Both the position numbers and the translations under genes were made by a program. A DNA stretch of 64,000 nt from Oryzomonas sagensis (GTDB lineage: Bacteria; Desulfobacterota; Desulfuromonadia; Geobacterales; Pseudopelobacteraceae), in contig NZ_VZRA01000002.1 of assembly GCF_008802355.1 (NCBI RefSeq), positions 1 to 64,000 on the forward strand, written 5' to 3'. The notes under the pieces are model-generated. The model saw only the letters and a list, made by a program, of their open reading frames with translations, searched no databases and had not been told where the DNA came from. Within the stretch, counting starts at the first letter, position 1. The number at the start of each line of letters is the position of its first letter. Below are positions 27,319 through 45,210 of the stretch, one piece after another.

Positions 27319-28638
27319 TCACATCTTCCCGACCGGCTCAATCACGATACCGTCCATATCCAGATCAAGTTTCAGGCGTCTGGTCGCCTCCCTGGCCTCG
27401 CCGGCGGTGTTGAAGGGACCGGCGATAACACGGTAACTGTTGTTCTTCGGTATAACCTGCGCCGGGATCGGCGGCCCCTGGTGGTTGATAATGGCGGCCA
27501 TTCTCCGGGCGTCGATCTCGTCATGCACATCGGCGGCCAGCACATACCACGCCGCCATGTTCAGCTCCGGCGGCTCCGGCTTGCCGTACAGTTTTGCCGG
27601 GTGTTCGACCTCCACCAGTTTGGGAATCCCGTCTTCGCTCCCTGGGCTTATTTCGAAGATGGGAACCGGAATCCCCCTGGCTTCGGCCTGTACCTTCCTG
27701 ATCTTTTCCCAGTCGAGCGGGCGCGCCGACTTTTTTTCAATGGCTTTCAATTTTTCATAGATTCTCTGCAACTCTGCGGCGCCCGAGTCTTCCTGGGGCG
27801 TATGGGCTTCCAGGTACAGCACGCCATTGCGTTGGCCAAGGAGGTAGGGCTGATTGACAATGACGACCGGTGTAGAAACCGGGGTGTCGCTGAAGAGCGT
27901 CTTGATGTTTTCCGGGTAGAGCCTCATGCAGCCGTTGGTTGCCTTGAGGCCGATACTGGCCGGTTTATTGGTGCCGTGGATCAGATACCCCGATTTGCTG
28001 AGATAGAGCGCGTATTCTCCCAAGGGATTCTGCGGTCCCGGCGGGACTGCCGCAGGCAGGATGTCCCCTTTTTTTCTATGATCCGCGGCAATCGAAGCGG
28101 GCACATGCCAGGTCGGCCGGGCTGCCTTGCGCTCCACGCGCATGGGGCCTTGGGGGGTGGGTCGCTCTCTGGTCCCGACCCCGACCGGGTAGGTGGACAC
28201 CACCGGCGACGTGCCATCCCCCTTATACTGAAAGAGCCTCATGGTGGCCAGGTTGACCACGATGCCTTTTCTCGGAGCGTTCGGCAGGATAAAGCTCAGG
28301 GGTAACATGGTACGCACACCGGCCTCGGGCGCCCAGACATCCACCCCCGGATTGGCGGCGCTGACGGCATTGAGCCCCACGCCGAAGTGTCGGGCGATAT
28401 CCGGCAGCGTATCCCCCTTTTCCAGTCTGACGACCGCCAGCCGACCAACGACGTCGTCCCCTTTGGCGACCGGAAACCTGTTTCGTTCGATCTCCTTTTC
28501 CATGTGGTCCGGGGCAAGCCATGAGTCCTCCTGGGGAGCTTTTACCGCCGCACATCCCGGGAGAGCTACGATGAATAACCATAGAGCCATAAGGCGAAAC
28601 CACTGGGGCAAGCGTGACGGGGCAACGATTCGGCGCAT
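27319..28638 (-). CDS. L,D-transpeptidase with LysM and SPOR domains
   Basis: The 439-residue product has a signal peptide with lipobox-like ALPGC (near residue 28), a LysM-like domain (VVRLEKGDTLPDIARHF, residues 65-110), a YkuD domain (residues 125-265) with HGTNKP and nucleophile Cys in ATNGCMRLYP near residue 238, and a C-terminal SPOR-like domain (SYRVIAGPFNTAGEAREATRRL, in parts). It would act on peptidoglycan in the periplasm, SPOR directing it to denuded strands. Two tandem riboswitches precede it, so its expression should follow a cyclic dinucleotide signal. Confidence 0.88.
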   Translation of the reverse strand: MRRIVAPSRLPQWFRLMALWLFIVALPGCAAVKAPQEDSWLAPDHMEKEIERNRFPVAKGDDVVGRLAVVRLEKGDTLPDIARHFGVGLNAVSAANPGVDVWAPEAGVRTMLPLSFILPNAPRKGIVVNLATMRLFQYKGDGTSPVVSTYPVGVGTRERPTPQGPMRVERKAARPTWHVPASIAADHRKKGDILPAAVPPGPQNPLGEYALYLSKSGYLIHGTNKPASIGLKATNGCMRLYPENIKTLFSDTPVSTPVVIVNQPYLLGQRNGVLYLEAHTPQEDSGAAELQRIYEKLKAIEKKSARPLDWEKIRKVQAEARGIPVPIFEISPGSEDGIPKLVEVEHPAKLYGKPEPPELNMAAWYVLAADVHDEIDARRMAAIINHQGPPIPAQVIPKNNSYRVIAGPFNTAGEAREATRRLKLDLDMDGIVIEPVGKM

Positions 28639-28759: not shown

Positions 28760-28837
28760 ATTTCGGCAACCCGGCTGTCTCAGTGAGACCCTGTAGGCTT
28801 TCCGCCCCATCCTCGCGGATGGTTGAGTATTATCGTG
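28760..28837 (-). promoter_or_regulatory. GEMM-I riboswitch (cGAMP type), proximal copy
   Basis: Minus-strand RNA carries the GEMM-I core: ACGATAATACTCAACC, P2 with a GCGA tetraloop and GGATGGGGCGG, AAAGCCTACAGGG, P3, then GACAGCCGGGTTGCCGAAAT. This is very close to the Geobacter GEMM-Ib aptamers I remember as binding 3',3'-cGAMP, with A where c-di-GMP binders have G. The expression platform has diverged: only a short CCGGG/CCCGG pairing can form before a T7 run, unlike the other two copies. It lies about 120 bases before the L,D-transpeptidase gene. Confidence 0.85.
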
Positions 28838-28949
28838 TACCACCAAGCAGGTGTATGTCGTTTTCCGCCATCGACGGGAACCGGCATACGACGACGCCCT
28901 ATAAAGGTGCACCTCGTGTTGACGCGGCCTCCAGTGTCGTTTTGATGAC

Positions 28950-28995
28950 AAAAAAACCGGGTTGCCGAATATCTCGTGATATTTCGGCAACCCGG
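28950..28995 (-). terminator. Riboswitch expression-platform terminator
   Basis: CCGGGTTGCCGAAATAT, shared with P1 of the distal aptamer, pairs with ATATTCGGCAACCCGG, followed by T7. This long stem gives a clear ligand-relieved terminator. Confidence 0.85.
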
Positions 28996-29057
28996 CTGTC
29001 TCAGTAAGACCCTATAGGCTTTCCGCCCCATCCTTGCGAATGGTTAAGTATTATCGT
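28980..29057 (-). promoter_or_regulatory. GEMM-I riboswitch (cGAMP type), distal copy
   Basis: A second aptamer in the same orientation, about 140 bases upstream of the first: ACGATAATACTTAACC, the P2 hairpin, GGATGGGGCGGAAAGCC, P3 and GCCGGGTTGCCGAAATAT. The 3' strand of P1 pairs either in the aptamer or with the terminator that follows, so ligand binding should turn transcription on. Confidence 0.88.
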
Positions 29058-29340
29058 CTATCTCTAAAATTTGGGCCTTTCTACCAGTTCCACGGGGCGT
29101 TGTCAATTTTATTCTAAAGATAAGGTTGATTTGACGCACCCGTCACAAGCGTCCGTGAATAAAATACCCTTGTATTTCGTAATGCGTCAGAAGGTTTCAT
29201 GACAGGAGAGGGGGGTGGAAACAGGTGTTCAGATCTTGGGTGATTCTTCTTGCATGGGGGCATGGGGGACTCGAAATGGCAGGCGAAAAAGTTTTGCTGA
29301 GCGTAACGTTTGTGGAGCTATATTTTATTTAAAATAAAAG

Positions 29341-40569: not shown

Positions 40570-42723
40570 ATGATGCATAGCAAAACGAAAACGAAACTGA
40601 ATGTCATAGAGGGGGGCAGGGGAGCCAAACAGGCGGAGGCGGGAGTATCCGCAAACACCTTCCTGCATGTCGAGTCGGTCTTGGAAAAGGCCGCGCACCA
40701 GCTCGCCGCATTGCAAAACGACGACGGGCACTGGGTGTTCGAACTGGAAGCGGATGTCACCATCCCCTCGGAATACATCATGCTGCAGCGGTTTCTCGGC
40801 CGCAGCGTCGACGAAAAAACCGCTTCCCGCCTCTCCTCCTATCTCCTCGACCGGCAACTGCCGGACGGCAGCTGGCCCTTGTACGCCGTGGACGGCAATG
40901 CCAACATCAGCGCTTCGGTAAAAGCCTACTTTGCCCTCAAACTGCTCGGCCATGACAAAAATGCGCCGTACATGGTAAAGGCGCGGCAGATCATCCTCTC
41001 CCTCGGCGGCGCGGCGCGGTGCAACGTCTTCACCAGGATCACCCTGGCGCTCTTCGGCCAGGTCCCCTGGCATACGCCACCCGCCATGCCGATAGAGATC
41101 ATGCTGCTCCCGCGCTGGTTCTTTTTCCATCTCAGCAAAATATCCTACTGGTCGAGAACGGTTATCGTGCCGCTGTTGATCCTCTACGCGAAACAGCCGG
41201 TCTGTGCGCTGCGCCATGACGAGGGGATAACCGAACTGTTTACCACGCCTCCCGATATGCTGGGCAACCTGGATCACTTCCGGCACCGGGCCTGGCGAAA
41301 GAATGTCTTTATCATCCTCGACCGCGTTCTCAAGCGCACGATGCACTACATCCCGAAAAGGATCAGCGCCCACGCCCTGCGCCAGGCCGAACAATGGACC
41401 CGCGAGCGCATGCAGGGGGAGGGGGGCATCGGGGCCATCTACCCGGCCATGGCCAACGCCGTGATGGCGTTGAAAACCCTCGGCTGCCGGGAGGACGATC
41501 CCGACTATGTGCGGGGGCTAGCGGCTCTCGACGATCTGCTGATTCATCGGACGCCTGCTCCCGACGCTGTTCCAAGCCTCCAGAGCCCCTTCGGGGGAGG
41601 GATCGACCGCTCTTCGGCGGCCCCCGACCTCCTGCCGTCGCGGCATGCAGCGACAGCCCGGGATGACCATTTCAGTCTCTGCCAGCCGTGCAACTCCCCG
41701 GTATGGGATACCTGCCTGAGCCTGTCGGCCCTGGTGGAAGCGGGTATACCGGGAAACCTGTTCTCCGCGGACGAGGCCATGAAGTGGCTTTTCGACCGCC
41801 AGATCAGCACGCCGGGCGACTGGTCGGGCAAGTGCCCCGGCCTGGCGTGCGGCGGTTGGGCGTTCCAGTACGAAAACACCCTGTATCCCGATGTTGACGA
41901 CACCTCCAAGGTTCTGATGGGGCTGTTCCGGGCCGGAGCGCTGGAGCGGGAGGAATACCGGGAAAAGATCGCCAAGGCGGTCAGGTGGGTCATTGGGATG
42001 CAGAATTCCGACGGCGGCTGGGGGGCCTTCGATGTCGACAACGACTACCTGTATCTGAACGATATCCCCTTTGCCGACCATGGCGCCTTGCTCGACCCCA
42101 GCACCTCCGACCTCACCGGGCGCTGTATCGAAATGCTGGGGATGCTCGGTTACGGCCCGGATTTCCCGCCGATAGCCAGGGGGCTCGCCTATCTGGAAGA
42201 GGAGCAGGAGGCGTTTGGCGGCTGGTTCGGCCGGTGGGGGGTCAACTATCTCTACGGCACCTGGTCCGTGCTCTCCGGTCTGCATGAGGTGGGAGAGGAT
42301 ATGCAGAAGCCGTATGTCAGGAAGGCGGTGGAATGGCTCGTGGGGTGCCAGAACGGGGATGGCGGCTGGGGAGAGACCTGCGCCAGTTACGATGACCCGT
42401 CATTGGCCGGCAGCGGCGCCAGCACCCCGTCCCAGACCGCCTGGGCGCTCCTGGCGCTCATGGCTGCCGGCGAAACGGACCGCCCGGAGGTCCAGCGGGG
42501 CATGCAGTACCTGGTCGATCGCTACCACAACGGCTGGGAGGAACGGCATTTTACCGGGACCGGCTTCCCACGGGTCTTCTATCTGCGCTACCACGGCTAC
42601 CGGCTCTTCTTCCCCGTGTGGGCCCTGGGGGCGTACCTGCGGCGCCGGAGAGGGGCGACCACGGTACAGGACGCGGTGCGCAGAAAATATATGGGGGGAG
42701 TTTCCTGGCTCAAGCTGCAGTAA
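40570..42723 (+). CDS. shc: Squalene-hopene cyclase
   Basis: The ATG at 40570 follows ACGGAG. The 717-residue product cyclises squalene to hopene, the first hopanoid step, at the inner membrane. The catalytic DxDD acid is DVDD in YPDVDDTSK near residue 441; QW repeats are visible (QNSDGGWGAF, QNGDGGWGE, LDRQLPDGSW). An unusual, proline- and serine-rich stretch of about 40 residues (about 324-365, from HRTPAPDAVP to TARDDH) sits between LDDLL and the QPCNSPVWDT motif, where relatives have a short loop. A TetR operator precedes it. Confidence 0.93.
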   Translation: MMHSKTKTKLNVIEGGRGAKQAEAGVSANTFLHVESVLEKAAHQLAALQNDDGHWVFELEADVTIPSEYIMLQRFLGRSVDEKTASRLSSYLLDRQLPDGSWPLYAVDGNANISASVKAYFALKLLGHDKNAPYMVKARQIILSLGGAARCNVFTRITLALFGQVPWHTPPAMPIEIMLLPRWFFFHLSKISYWSRTVIVPLLILYAKQPVCALRHDEGITELFTTPPDMLGNLDHFRHRAWRKNVFIILDRVLKRTMHYIPKRISAHALRQAEQWTRERMQGEGGIGAIYPAMANAVMALKTLGCREDDPDYVRGLAALDDLLIHRTPAPDAVPSLQSPFGGGIDRSSAAPDLLPSRHAATARDDHFSLCQPCNSPVWDTCLSLSALVEAGIPGNLFSADEAMKWLFDRQISTPGDWSGKCPGLACGGWAFQYENTLYPDVDDTSKVLMGLFRAGALEREEYREKIAKAVRWVIGMQNSDGGWGAFDVDNDYLYLNDIPFADHGALLDPSTSDLTGRCIEMLGMLGYGPDFPPIARGLAYLEEEQEAFGGWFGRWGVNYLYGTWSVLSGLHEVGEDMQKPYVRKAVEWLVGCQNGDGGWGETCASYDDPSLAGSGASTPSQTAWALLALMAAGETDRPEVQRGMQYLVDRYHNGWEERHFTGTGFPRVFYLRYHGYRLFFPVWALGAYLRRRRGATTVQDAVRRKYMGGVSWLKLQ

Positions 42724-42968: not shown

Positions 42969-43406
42969 CTAACGCTGTTGCCGGAACCACGCAAGCAGGG
43001 CCTCAACGCTCTGCGCCCCGGCGAGCCGGGCGACGACCCTGCCGTTGCGAAGCAGCACGACGTCCGGTATGCCCCGCACGCCGAACCGTCCCGCCAGGGC
43101 CGGATTCTGCTGGGTATCGACCTGGCAGACGGCCGCCTTTCCCGCCAATCTCTCCGCTGCCGTTCGCACCGCCGGTGCGAATGAGACGCAGTGCGGTCAC
43201 CATGGTGCCCAGAACTCCACCAGTACCGGCCCCGGGTAGTTCTGCACGAAGGCGTCGAAGGAGTGCTCCGTGAGCTGCTGCGGGTGGTGGTACAACGGCG
43301 GGAGGGTGGCGCGGCAGGTGCCGCAACGTCCCTGTTTCCCCTCCTTGTCGGCGGGGATTCTGTTGGCTGCGCCGCAGGATGTGCAGGTGACGATATAGTC
43401 GGACAT
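42969..43406 (-). CDS. trxC: Selenocysteine-containing thioredoxin, TrxC type
   Basis: One frame runs from the ATG at 43406 (after GAGGAGAACG) to 42969, interrupted only by a TGA at 43197-43199 (codon 70). The TGA falls exactly at the first catalytic Cys: VEFWAPW-U-PHC, where thioredoxin-2 proteins have WAPWCGPC. The N-terminus has the TrxC zinc ribbon (CTSCGAANR, then CGTCRATLP). A hairpin suited to a bacterial SECIS follows the TGA. The 145-residue product should be a Sec-dependent disulfide reductase. Gene callers would split it in two. Confidence 0.85.
43163..43181 (-). promoter_or_regulatory. Predicted bacterial SECIS hairpin
   Basis: On the coding strand TTCGCACC and GGTGCGAA form a perfect 8-bp stem with loop GGC, starting 15 bases after the UGA codon. 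Position and a G at the start of the loop fit SelB-bound SECIS elements. Confidence 0.7.
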
Positions 43407-43662
43407 CGTACGTTCTCCTCGAGCCATTATTTTCGCCCAAACCCGGTCCTGCGGTCAAGGGGGGCACGCAAAAAATCCGGCCCAGGGCCTGTTCGCGCCG
43501 GAAGTGGCCGGGGGGGAGCGCCATTTGGGGCGCGGCCCATGTTTGCCCTTGCAACGATCCCGGAGGTGTTGCAAAATAGTCAGCCGACTTTTCAGCCGAA
43601 GGAGAGAGGTCGGCTTGCATGGTAACAGCCGATGGACGTAAACTTGCGAACAGGGAGCAGAG

Positions 43663-44196
43663 ATGGCGGCTAGCAAAAAGAGTGCGCTCATGGTGGAGCT
43701 GGTGGTGTCGGCCGGGCTTGTGTGCTGTCTTGCCGCCTGCATGGGCGACCTCGTCTACCGGCCGGAAAAGAAGATCGCACCGGTCGCCCCCACGGTCGCG
43801 AAGTTGCACCCCCACCTGCCGCCCATGCCGGATATGGCGGCCAACAACGCCACCCCGGCGGGGATCGATACCAGCGGCAGCGGCGTGCGTGACGATGTGC
43901 AGATCTGGATCTATACAAACTATACGACGAATGTGAAGCGCACTGTTCTCATGACCATGGCCAAGACCCTTCAGGATGTGATGGCCGCCCCGCCAAAGAC
44001 GGCTGAAGAGGCGAAAAACCTGGATCAGTCCTTCAGGGATGCGGCCATGATGCTCAAGATCGTTCGGGGCCTCACGCGGCGCGAGGCCGACGAGATGGAT
44101 CGGCTCCTCTATACGCAGACGGTCAATACGCCGGAACGCCTGAAGGTCTATCTGCAGTACAATTTGCTGCTGGGTGGCGGTACGGCCAAGCACTGA
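43663..44196 (+). CDS. Predicted lipoprotein, unknown
   Basis: The 177-residue product has a signal segment with lipobox-like LAAC (residues 23-26), a proline-rich linker, then GIDTSGSGVRDDVQIWIYTNYT, a pattern seen in small exported Geobacter proteins (acidic turn followed by a helix), and helical C-terminal parts. GGGAGCAGAG precedes the ATG. A perfect 15-bp terminator follows. Function unknown. Confidence 0.65.
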   Translation: MAASKKSALMVELVVSAGLVCCLAACMGDLVYRPEKKIAPVAPTVAKLHPHLPPMPDMAANNATPAGIDTSGSGVRDDVQIWIYTNYTTNVKRTVLMTMAKTLQDVMAAPPKTAEEAKNLDQSFRDAAMMLKIVRGLTRREADEMDRLLYTQTVNTPERLKVYLQYNLLLGGGTAKH

Positions 44197-44274: not shown

Positions 44275-44877
44275 TTAGTTGAAAAAGTATCTCGCGCCAA
44301 AGGTCGTGGAGATGCTCATGGGGTCGATATTGCCGACTTTATTGCCCTGGTAGTTGATATCGGCGTTGGGCGCCAGGATTGCCTTGAGCTGGGCGGTCAG
44401 GGCCACCTGTTTGGTCACGAAATAGTCGACGCCGCCGCTGATATGGACGCCCAGGCTGGTGTCAACGTCGGTTCTGGTCCCGTCGGAGTAGGTGAAGTCG
44501 TTGACCAGGATATCCAGGCCGGCGCCCACATAGGGGGTCAGCCGGGGGACCGCGACGTCAAAACGGTATTGGGCGCCCAAGGAGAAGTTGTTGGTTTCGG
44601 CGTTGCCGCTCTCGCCGTAGCCGTGGACATCGTAGTCGGTGTGGGTGATATCGAATTCCGCCGCGATGTTTTTGGTTATGCCGTAGATGAACCCGCCGCC
44701 GCCGACGAAAGCGGTATCCGTACTGGCGCTACGTCCCGATAGCTCGCTGTCGGCAGGGACCAGAAAGCCGAGTCTGCCGGTGACGCCGAGCCTTCCCCTG
44801 ATATCGTCCGCCATGGCGGGGTTGGCGGCAAAAAACAGCGACAAGGCCAAACAACAGGAATAGATGGTCTTCTTCAT
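44275..44877 (-). CDS. OmpW-like outer-membrane beta-barrel protein
   Basis: The ATG at 44877 follows AAAGGAGAAC; a longer frame runs into the riboswitch. The 200-residue product has a signal peptide (KKTIYSCCLALSLFFAANPAMA) and alternating amphipathic strands (GRLGFLVP, FSLGAQYRFDV, YVGAGLDIL, ISTTFGARYFFN), as in 8-stranded OmpW/OmpA-like barrels. The leader holds a cGAMP-type riboswitch and terminator, so its amount should rise with the dinucleotide. Confidence 0.82.
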   Translation of the reverse strand: MKKTIYSCCLALSLFFAANPAMADDIRGRLGVTGRLGFLVPADSELSGRSASTDTAFVGGGGFIYGITKNIAAEFDITHTDYDVHGYGESGNAETNNFSLGAQYRFDVAVPRLTPYVGAGLDILVNDFTYSDGTRTDVDTSLGVHISGGVDYFVTKQVALTAQLKAILAPNADINYQGNKVGNIDPMSISTTFGARYFFN

Positions 44878-44940
44878 AATGTTCTCCTTTGGGGATAGTG
44901 TTTGTTCACCCCCCCATCGTGTCACGGGTGGGATGAAATG

Positions 44941-44985
44941 AAAAAACCGGGCTGCCGAATATCTATGATATTTCGGCAACCCGGC
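44941..44985 (-). terminator. Riboswitch terminator before the barrel gene
   Basis: CCGGGTTGCCGAAATAT pairs with ATATTCGGCAGCCCGG (one G-U), followed by T6. The stem uses P1 of the aptamer, as in the distal copy at 28950. Confidence 0.82.
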
Positions 44986-45046
44986 TGTCTCGGTGAGACC
45001 CTGTAGGCTTTCCGCCCCATTCTCGCGAATGGTTGAGTAGTATCGG
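44970..45046 (-). promoter_or_regulatory. GEMM-I riboswitch (cGAMP type)
   Basis: Third copy of the aptamer in the window: CCGATACTACTCAACC, P2 with GCGA loop, GAATGGGGCGGAAAGCC, P3 and GCCGGGTTGCCGAAAT. It differs at one spot in the first strand (ACTACT where the others have AATACT), near the position that sets ligand choice. Confidence 0.85.
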
Positions 45047-45210
45047 TTATCACATGCGCTTGTTTTCAGCGGCGACTATTTATGCACATGAGGCGCCGAA
45101 TGTCAATGGCCGGGGCGCGTTCTTTTTTGTCCCTCTTTTGGCGAATCTTTGTTTATAATGGTATTCTTATTAGTAACGGGTTGGATTACTGAGAAAAAGG
45201 GAGACGCGCA

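Follow-up and report, generated by a model that had tools for sequence, protein, structure and literature searches.

A zinc-ribbon thioredoxin gene of Oryzomonas sagensis with a UGA codon very probably decoded as selenocysteine

Does an in-frame TGA in a thioredoxin gene of Oryzomonas sagensis encode selenocysteine (Sec), or does it end, interrupt or otherwise alter the product? The question arises from a window of 64,000 nucleotides (contig NZ_VZRA01000002.1, positions 1 to 64,000), taken from a source genome of 3.61 Mb in 18 contigs (designated G000). A preliminary description had placed a thioredoxin with Sec instead of the first active-site cysteine at 42969-43406. These coordinates are correct, and the gene, whose strand had been left unstated, is coded on the minus strand; the plus strand of the same interval was also read, and no thioredoxin is there. 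The comparison of the codon among relatives, the conserved hairpin, the machinery genes, and the predicted fold together lead to the reading of a selenothioredoxin with a bacterial SECIS. On this sequence evidence, the product is with very high probability a thioredoxin of the zinc-ribbon (Trx2) type, with Sec inserted at UGA codon 70 through the SECIS hairpin and the Sel machinery. The direct basis of the reading is the codon, the hairpin and the selection on it, the exchange of Sec and Cys, the machinery genes, and the predicted fold.

The gene, its surroundings and the predicted protein

The selenothioredoxin CDS (42969-43406, minus strand) codes for 145 aa, from the ATG at 43406 to the TAG stop at 42969-42971. 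A Shine-Dalgarno-like run GAGGAG, read directly in the sequence, is located at 43415-43420 on the same strand, 8 bases 5' of the ATG. Codon 70 (TGA, 43197-43199, minus strand) stands at the first active-site position and is the sole internal stop of the frame. As the preliminary description had it, this TGA occupies the place of the first Cys of WCxxC (WAPW-U-PHC) in a frame otherwise complete from the zinc ribbon to the C-terminus, and the zinc-ribbon cysteines C8, C11, C28, and C31, W66, C73, and I113-P114 all share the single frame with it. With TGA as U, the minus strand reads MSDYIVTCTSCG...VLVEFWAPWUPHCVSFAPAVR...GIPDVVLL... In the list of ORFs predicted with table 11, the gene is split at the TGA into two pieces, one ORF ending at 43197 and the other at 42969-43169, and routine annotation would thus probably truncate the gene at the TGA or divide it.

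The gene seems to stand alone. A convergent ORF on the plus strand, which we take from its sequence to be squalene-hopene-cyclase-like, ends at 42723; the start of a divergent ORF is at 43663. Elsewhere in the window, two tandem c-di-GMP-I riboswitches at 28762-28838 and 28983-29059 (minus strand) are located upstream of a 439-aa ORF at 27319-28638, LysM/L,D-transpeptidase-like as named by eye. One more c-di-GMP-I riboswitch, at 44972-45048 on the minus strand, lies just upstream of the ORF 44275-44979, a predicted small outer-membrane-type protein, with the type again assigned by eye.

The protein matched the Pfam families PF00085 Thioredoxin (90.8 bits, cut-off 23.5, E 6.5e-26) and PF21352 Zn_ribbon_Thio2 (34.2 bits, cut-off 27.1), the latter representing the N-terminal zinc ribbon of residues 7-33 (43308-43388, minus strand). 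The best NCBIfam match was the TrxC equivalog NF008229, with 107.4 bits and under its cut-off of 125. When the Oryzomonas protein and 26 orthologues were aligned (27 sequences), C8, C28, and C31 were invariant and C11 nearly so. Also invariant were Cys73 of WUPHC (TGC, 43188-43190, minus strand), for which a resolving role may be assumed, and I113 with P114; Pro114 (43065-43067, minus strand) is presumably the cis-proline of thioredoxins. PHC had been pointed out earlier as a departure from the usual GPC, and UPHC is confirmed, with H72 invariant in the 27 sequences.

The same alignment was the input of AlphaFold2. The model, with pLDDT 95.1 and pTM 0.88, is a confidently predicted zinc ribbon plus thioredoxin, and residue 70 comes immediately before the helix 71-86. 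Among thioredoxins, the top match of the predicted model was 4ulx, with Z 20.7 and an rmsd of 1.0 over 105 residues (rows less than 1 Z apart are taken as ties), and the comparison with 2ppt (thioredoxin-2) gave Z 19.8 and rmsd 3.7 over 127 residues. At the profile level, the match to the solved Trx-2 chain 2ppt spans positions 5-141.

Codon 70 and the hairpin in related genomes

From 141 genomes of the order, loci were taken that matched the whole protein at E 1e-25 or better, which gave 89 orthologous loci in 84 genomes. The U70 column has TGA in 77 loci, TGC in 8, and TGT in 4, and no other codon. The preliminary description had proposed a comparison with orthologues having TGC or TGT, and the outcome, 12 Cys loci against 77 TGA loci, is strong support for Sec. 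It had also named orthologues ending at the TGA as counter-evidence; homology runs on past codon 70 in all 89 loci and none ends there, with the qualification that a truncated orthologue could have escaped a selection by whole-protein similarity. One TGA locus (L155, genome G096) has two additional internal stops and looks like a decayed gene, possibly a pseudogene, and another (L185) runs off its contig. In 76 TGA loci, mean identity to the Oryzomonas protein is 62% after the TGA vs. 66% before it. The residues beyond the UGA are thus about as conserved as those in front of it, which argues that selection maintains the full-length protein.

A tree was computed from 87 loci, all of the 89 except L155 and L191, with residues 70-82 masked. 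On it, the Cys state requires three changes and the Cys rows are nested among the Sec rows, although the columns are few, many forks are weak, and the tree has no inferred root. Within the family, 76 genomes yielded 56 matching rows in 44 genomes. Of these, 41 rows with E <1e-45 (40 genomes) were kept, and 15 rows of E about 1e-21, with a match in the thioredoxin domain only and no stop, were set aside as paralogues. One TGA is present in 30 of the 41 kept rows and no stop in 11. At 1e-30, matches were found in 96 of the 277 genomes of the class, and 12 of these 96 lie outside the order: three of them have one TGA (E <1e-69) and nine have no stop (3.1e-31 to 7.4e-35). One of these three TGA loci (L234) was read in sequence; its TGA is in the same place and is followed by a hairpin with a GTC loop.

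The hairpin of the Oryzomonas gene, UUCGCACC-GGC-GGUGCGAA, is located at 43163-43181 (minus strand; loop 43171-43173), which is +16 to +34 after the UGA. The perfect 8-bp stem and the 15 bases between UGA and stem agree with what was first described. Excerpts of PMC13188914 quote as limits of bSECIS elements a loop of 3-9 nt, a stem of 4-16 bp, G in the first two loop positions, a UGA-to-loop distance of 16-37 nt, and an MFE of at most -7.5 kcal/mol. The Oryzomonas hairpin is inside all of them (loop 3, stem 8, GG, UGA-to-loop 23 nt, MFE -10.9 kcal/mol), and the earlier suggestion that it sits where a bacterial SECIS belongs is borne out by these limits and by its conservation in TGA orthologues. 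In ViennaRNA, the 19-mer folds at -10.9 kcal/mol with 7 of 8 pairs formed, and with two extra bases on each side at -11.4 with all 8.

Taken by itself, the hairpin is just moderately surprising, because among the 2008 TGA triplets that the window has on its two strands, 11 (0.55%, own case counted) are followed by a perfect Watson-Crick 8-bp hairpin of the same geometry. The same geometry follows 0.40% of all window positions. The stability of the 53- to 93-base region is not unusual when compared with shuffles (z -0.69, -0.68, and +0.91). Since the GC-rich background also folds well, conservation, not folding energy, was used as proof. A covariance model of the hairpin (R1), run genome-wide, found one confident match, its own gene; weaker matches were the reverse complement of the same hairpin at E 0.6 and six more at E 1.3-7.2. 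The model thus gives no cross-check against other SECIS elements of the Oryzomonas genome.

Pairs in orthologues were counted with G-U allowed. All eight are formed in 70 of the 77 TGA loci, seven in six loci, and six in one. Among the Cys loci, 8/8 pairs are found in two of 12 (L007 and L183), and the other group of ten rows has 3 to 7 of 8. When the frame was slid from -9 to +26 in the TGA loci, the mean was at most 5.4 pairs vs. 7.9 at the true position. The covariation set consisted of 63 distinct TGA rows, with L155 and duplicates dropped; 98.4% of its cells are paired and three pairs have two-sided changes, compared with 35-62% of cells paired in the slid versions. In the 12 Cys rows, 69.8% of cells are paired and there are zero two-sided changes. 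Judged from these alignments, cross-species conservation puts the hairpin far beyond chance.

Codon usage points in the same direction. Mean normalised codon entropy over 76 TGA loci (L155 left out) is 0.13 for the five scorable hairpin codons vs. 0.75 for 45 other conserved codons. In these loci, P78 is coded by CCG in 76/76, V80 by GTG in 76/76, and A77 by GCA in 74/76. The protein sequence alone does not account for hairpin codons so nearly fixed.

A full hairpin in single Cys rows, as in L007 and L183, is expected of a recent Sec-to-Cys change. The locus L007 (G053:C35:26660-27091), from an Oryzomonas MAG, has TGT at the codon and keeps the full hairpin, with SelA and SelB present, and it looks like such a recent change. 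Remnant SECIS elements in Cys homologues are described in an excerpt of PMC1794560.

Selenocysteine machinery and the decoding of UGA

A check for the Sec machinery, whose absence would have spoken against Sec, had been proposed in the preliminary description, and all its components are present in the source genome: SelA (E 8.2e-153), SelB (E 4.2e-102), SelD (E 4.2e-106), and a tRNA-Sec with TCA anticodon (79.5 bits). The survey of other genomes used thresholds of E 1e-80 for SelB, E 1e-11 with stricter filters for tRNA-Sec, and E 1e-3 for SelA, the last one covering 9 of the 76 family genomes. Among family genomes with a TGA orthologue, SelB was found at 1e-80 in 26 of 29, with G005, G017, and G040 as exceptions. 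G005 is 52% complete and lacks SelB at 1e-80, yet has SelA and tRNA-Sec. In G017 (96% complete) and G040 (92%), no SelB (1e-80), tRNA-Sec (1e-11), or SelA (1e-3) was found, a result that counts against the reading but is likely due to missing contigs or incomplete binning. Family genomes with a Cys orthologue have SelB in 9 of 11 cases, and the exceptions, G024 and G027, yielded neither tRNA-Sec nor SelA at the survey thresholds.

Several features of the machinery genes were observed besides. The SelD gene (L048, G000 C2:131004-131927) has an in-frame TGA near the N-terminus, followed by the stretch GGGCCCTGCGGGCC. Three tRNA-Sec genes score above the gathering score (L032-L034; G000 C2:464003-464096, C4:151198-151291, and C5:45573-45666), all with TCA anticodon. 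Between the C2 and C4 copies, one D-stem pair is swapped with pairing kept, a compensatory change. The C5 copy is more divergent, and several of its D-stem pairs are non-standard in the register of the Rfam model; a shifted register pairs when aligned by eye. In excerpts of PMC5330540, two tRNA-Sec genes with compensatory mutations are reported for eight bacterial genomes, and two complete operons for Photobacterium profundum 3TCK; three tRNA-Sec copies in one bacterium are not mentioned in these excerpts.

There are also two SelB genes, 74.6% identical, at G000 C5:43308-44420 (L040/L198) and C1:1051814-1052971 (L041/L199). One of them is about 1 kb from a tRNA-Sec gene, and close to the other is a gene that by eye resembles formate dehydrogenase. 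The pair occurs in three of six Oryzomonas genomes (G000, G051, and G052), and because G051 and G052 are single-contig genomes, an assembly artefact is unlikely. Outside Oryzomonas, two SelB rows were found among the 76 genomes in G043 alone, a genome of another genus. The idea that the copies differ chiefly at the SECIS-binding end is not supported by block identities, which are 0.93, 0.79, 0.75, 0.72, 0.67, and 0.58 per 100 alignment columns and 0.86 in the last short block. The extreme C-terminus is thus conserved, which gives no support for a differing SECIS specificity.

As to Sec insertion itself, the catalytic cycle, and the substrates, we infer the following course. Sec-tRNA-Sec would be made by SelA and SelD, and SelB would bind the hairpin 16-34 bases 3' of the UGA and bring the charged tRNA to the ribosome. 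The product would have its UPHC active site where helix alpha-2 begins. The selenolate of Sec70 would attack substrate disulfides, Cys73 would resolve the mixed selenosulfide, and a thioredoxin reductase would probably reduce the protein again.

Other explanations of the TGA have to be weighed against the same counts. The TGA is extremely unlikely to be an artefact of sequencing or the nonsense mutation of a thioredoxin gene in decay: extra stops do occur in one orthologue (L155), and 57 of 141 order genomes are without a match at E 1e-25, so that the gene can be lost, but the TGA recurs in the same column of 77 of 89 loci, with the frame otherwise open in all except L155 and the residues beyond it still conserved. 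Decoding of UGA as Trp or Cys, by a change of the code or near-cognate readthrough, is very improbable. With Cys the site would be WCPHC and likewise functional, as in the 12 Cys orthologues among 89, but of the 88 loci in which a further stop is visible downstream of codon 70, 48 have TGA as the next one (one of the 48 is the extra internal stop of the decayed L155), so UGA serves as an ordinary stop and is not simply reassigned. Moreover, a hairpin of SECIS type is selected in TGA loci and degraded in 10 of 12 Cys loci, and a tRNA-Sec with TCA anticodon is present together with SelA, SelB, and SelD.

Termination could also prevail at the UGA and give a 69-residue zinc-ribbon peptide, with the Sec product minor or regulated, a reading that overlaps with Sec decoding. 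Sec insertion competes with termination in general, and the N-terminal zinc ribbon could perhaps fold by itself. However, conservation is at about the same level on both sides of the UGA, and predominant termination is unlikely.

Comparison with known thioredoxins

By analogy, the Pro-His dipeptide probably makes the UPHC protein less reducing than a CGPC thioredoxin. Selenium should shift the redox potential in the opposite direction to the Pro-His effect. According to excerpts of PMC4395160, the potential of an archaeal thioredoxin rose by 66 mV when CPHC was put in, and the resulting -221 mV is still a long way from DsbA; the XX dipeptide is argued not to be the main determinant of redox potential. 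These findings are a weak basis for the lower reducing power expected of UPHC. The Oryzomonas genome has another thioredoxin, with a WCAPC site, and the UPHC protein thus need not be the general reductase. The zinc-ribbon UPHC selenothioredoxins of the order might even form a separate redox class, cytosolic, combining Sec with the dipeptide of DsbA and tuned to exchange disulfides fast and in a comparatively oxidising way instead of serving as general reductases. In Oryzomonas, two SelB and up to three tRNA-Sec might then make up a duplicated Sec system for their decoding, with specialised copies; this proposal is speculative and rather doubtful.

The locus represents a clean case of Sec decoding: at one and the same codon, related genomes have either TGA or TGC/TGT, and most of the Cys genes carry a degraded hairpin. 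If the redox properties of UPHC are unusual, the protein could be a useful biochemical subject, though its kind is established. Selenothioredoxins of Geobacter relatives are already in print, and the kind has been known since about 2005. In the excerpts of these papers, thioredoxin is among the selenoproteins of G. sulfurreducens, G. metallireducens, and G. uraniumreducens (PMC1794560, 2006), the TGA thioredoxin GSU3446 is listed (PMC1914089, 2007), and a row of Geobacter sulfurreducens has a hit to 'thiol-disulfide isomerase and thioredoxins' (PMC1242214). Excerpts of PMC9312934 and PMC13188914 list Trx UxxC as an experimentally verified selenoprotein family. The Oryzomonas protein resembles this bacterial Sec thioredoxin (PF00085, UxxC) in having Sec at the first active-site position of a thioredoxin, and many genomes of the order have a Sec orthologue of it. 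The likeness to the Geobacter selenothioredoxins such as GSU3446 follows the published listing, as excerpted, and concerns the Sec thioredoxin as such.

Oryzomonas is not named for a selenothioredoxin in the excerpts of PMC1794560, PMC1914089, and PMC13188914. In a literature search on selenoproteins of Oryzomonas and Geomonas, neither genus name was found among the matches listed, and one on TrxC, zinc, and selenoproteins gave just one paper, on mercury stress of E. coli. The listed text matches for UPHC used the letters for other things. None of this implies that the type is absent from print.

Thioredoxin 2/TrxC is similar in its N-terminal zinc ribbon fused to a thioredoxin, with PF21352 and PF00085 both above cut-off. 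The active site of TrxC is CGPC, whereas the Oryzomonas protein has UPHC and scores under the TrxC equivalog cut-off. With DsbA, whose active site is CPHC (excerpt of PMC4395160), the protein shares Pro-His between the two active-site residues. None of the six Pfam families matched by the Oryzomonas protein is a DsbA domain, and the Dsb matches in NCBIfam were DsbE and DsbC alone, weak and far under cut-offs. It differs from DsbA in its zinc-ribbon architecture and in having no signal peptide recognizable by eye, and the UPHC motif together with the zinc ribbon makes the Oryzomonas protein slightly unusual.
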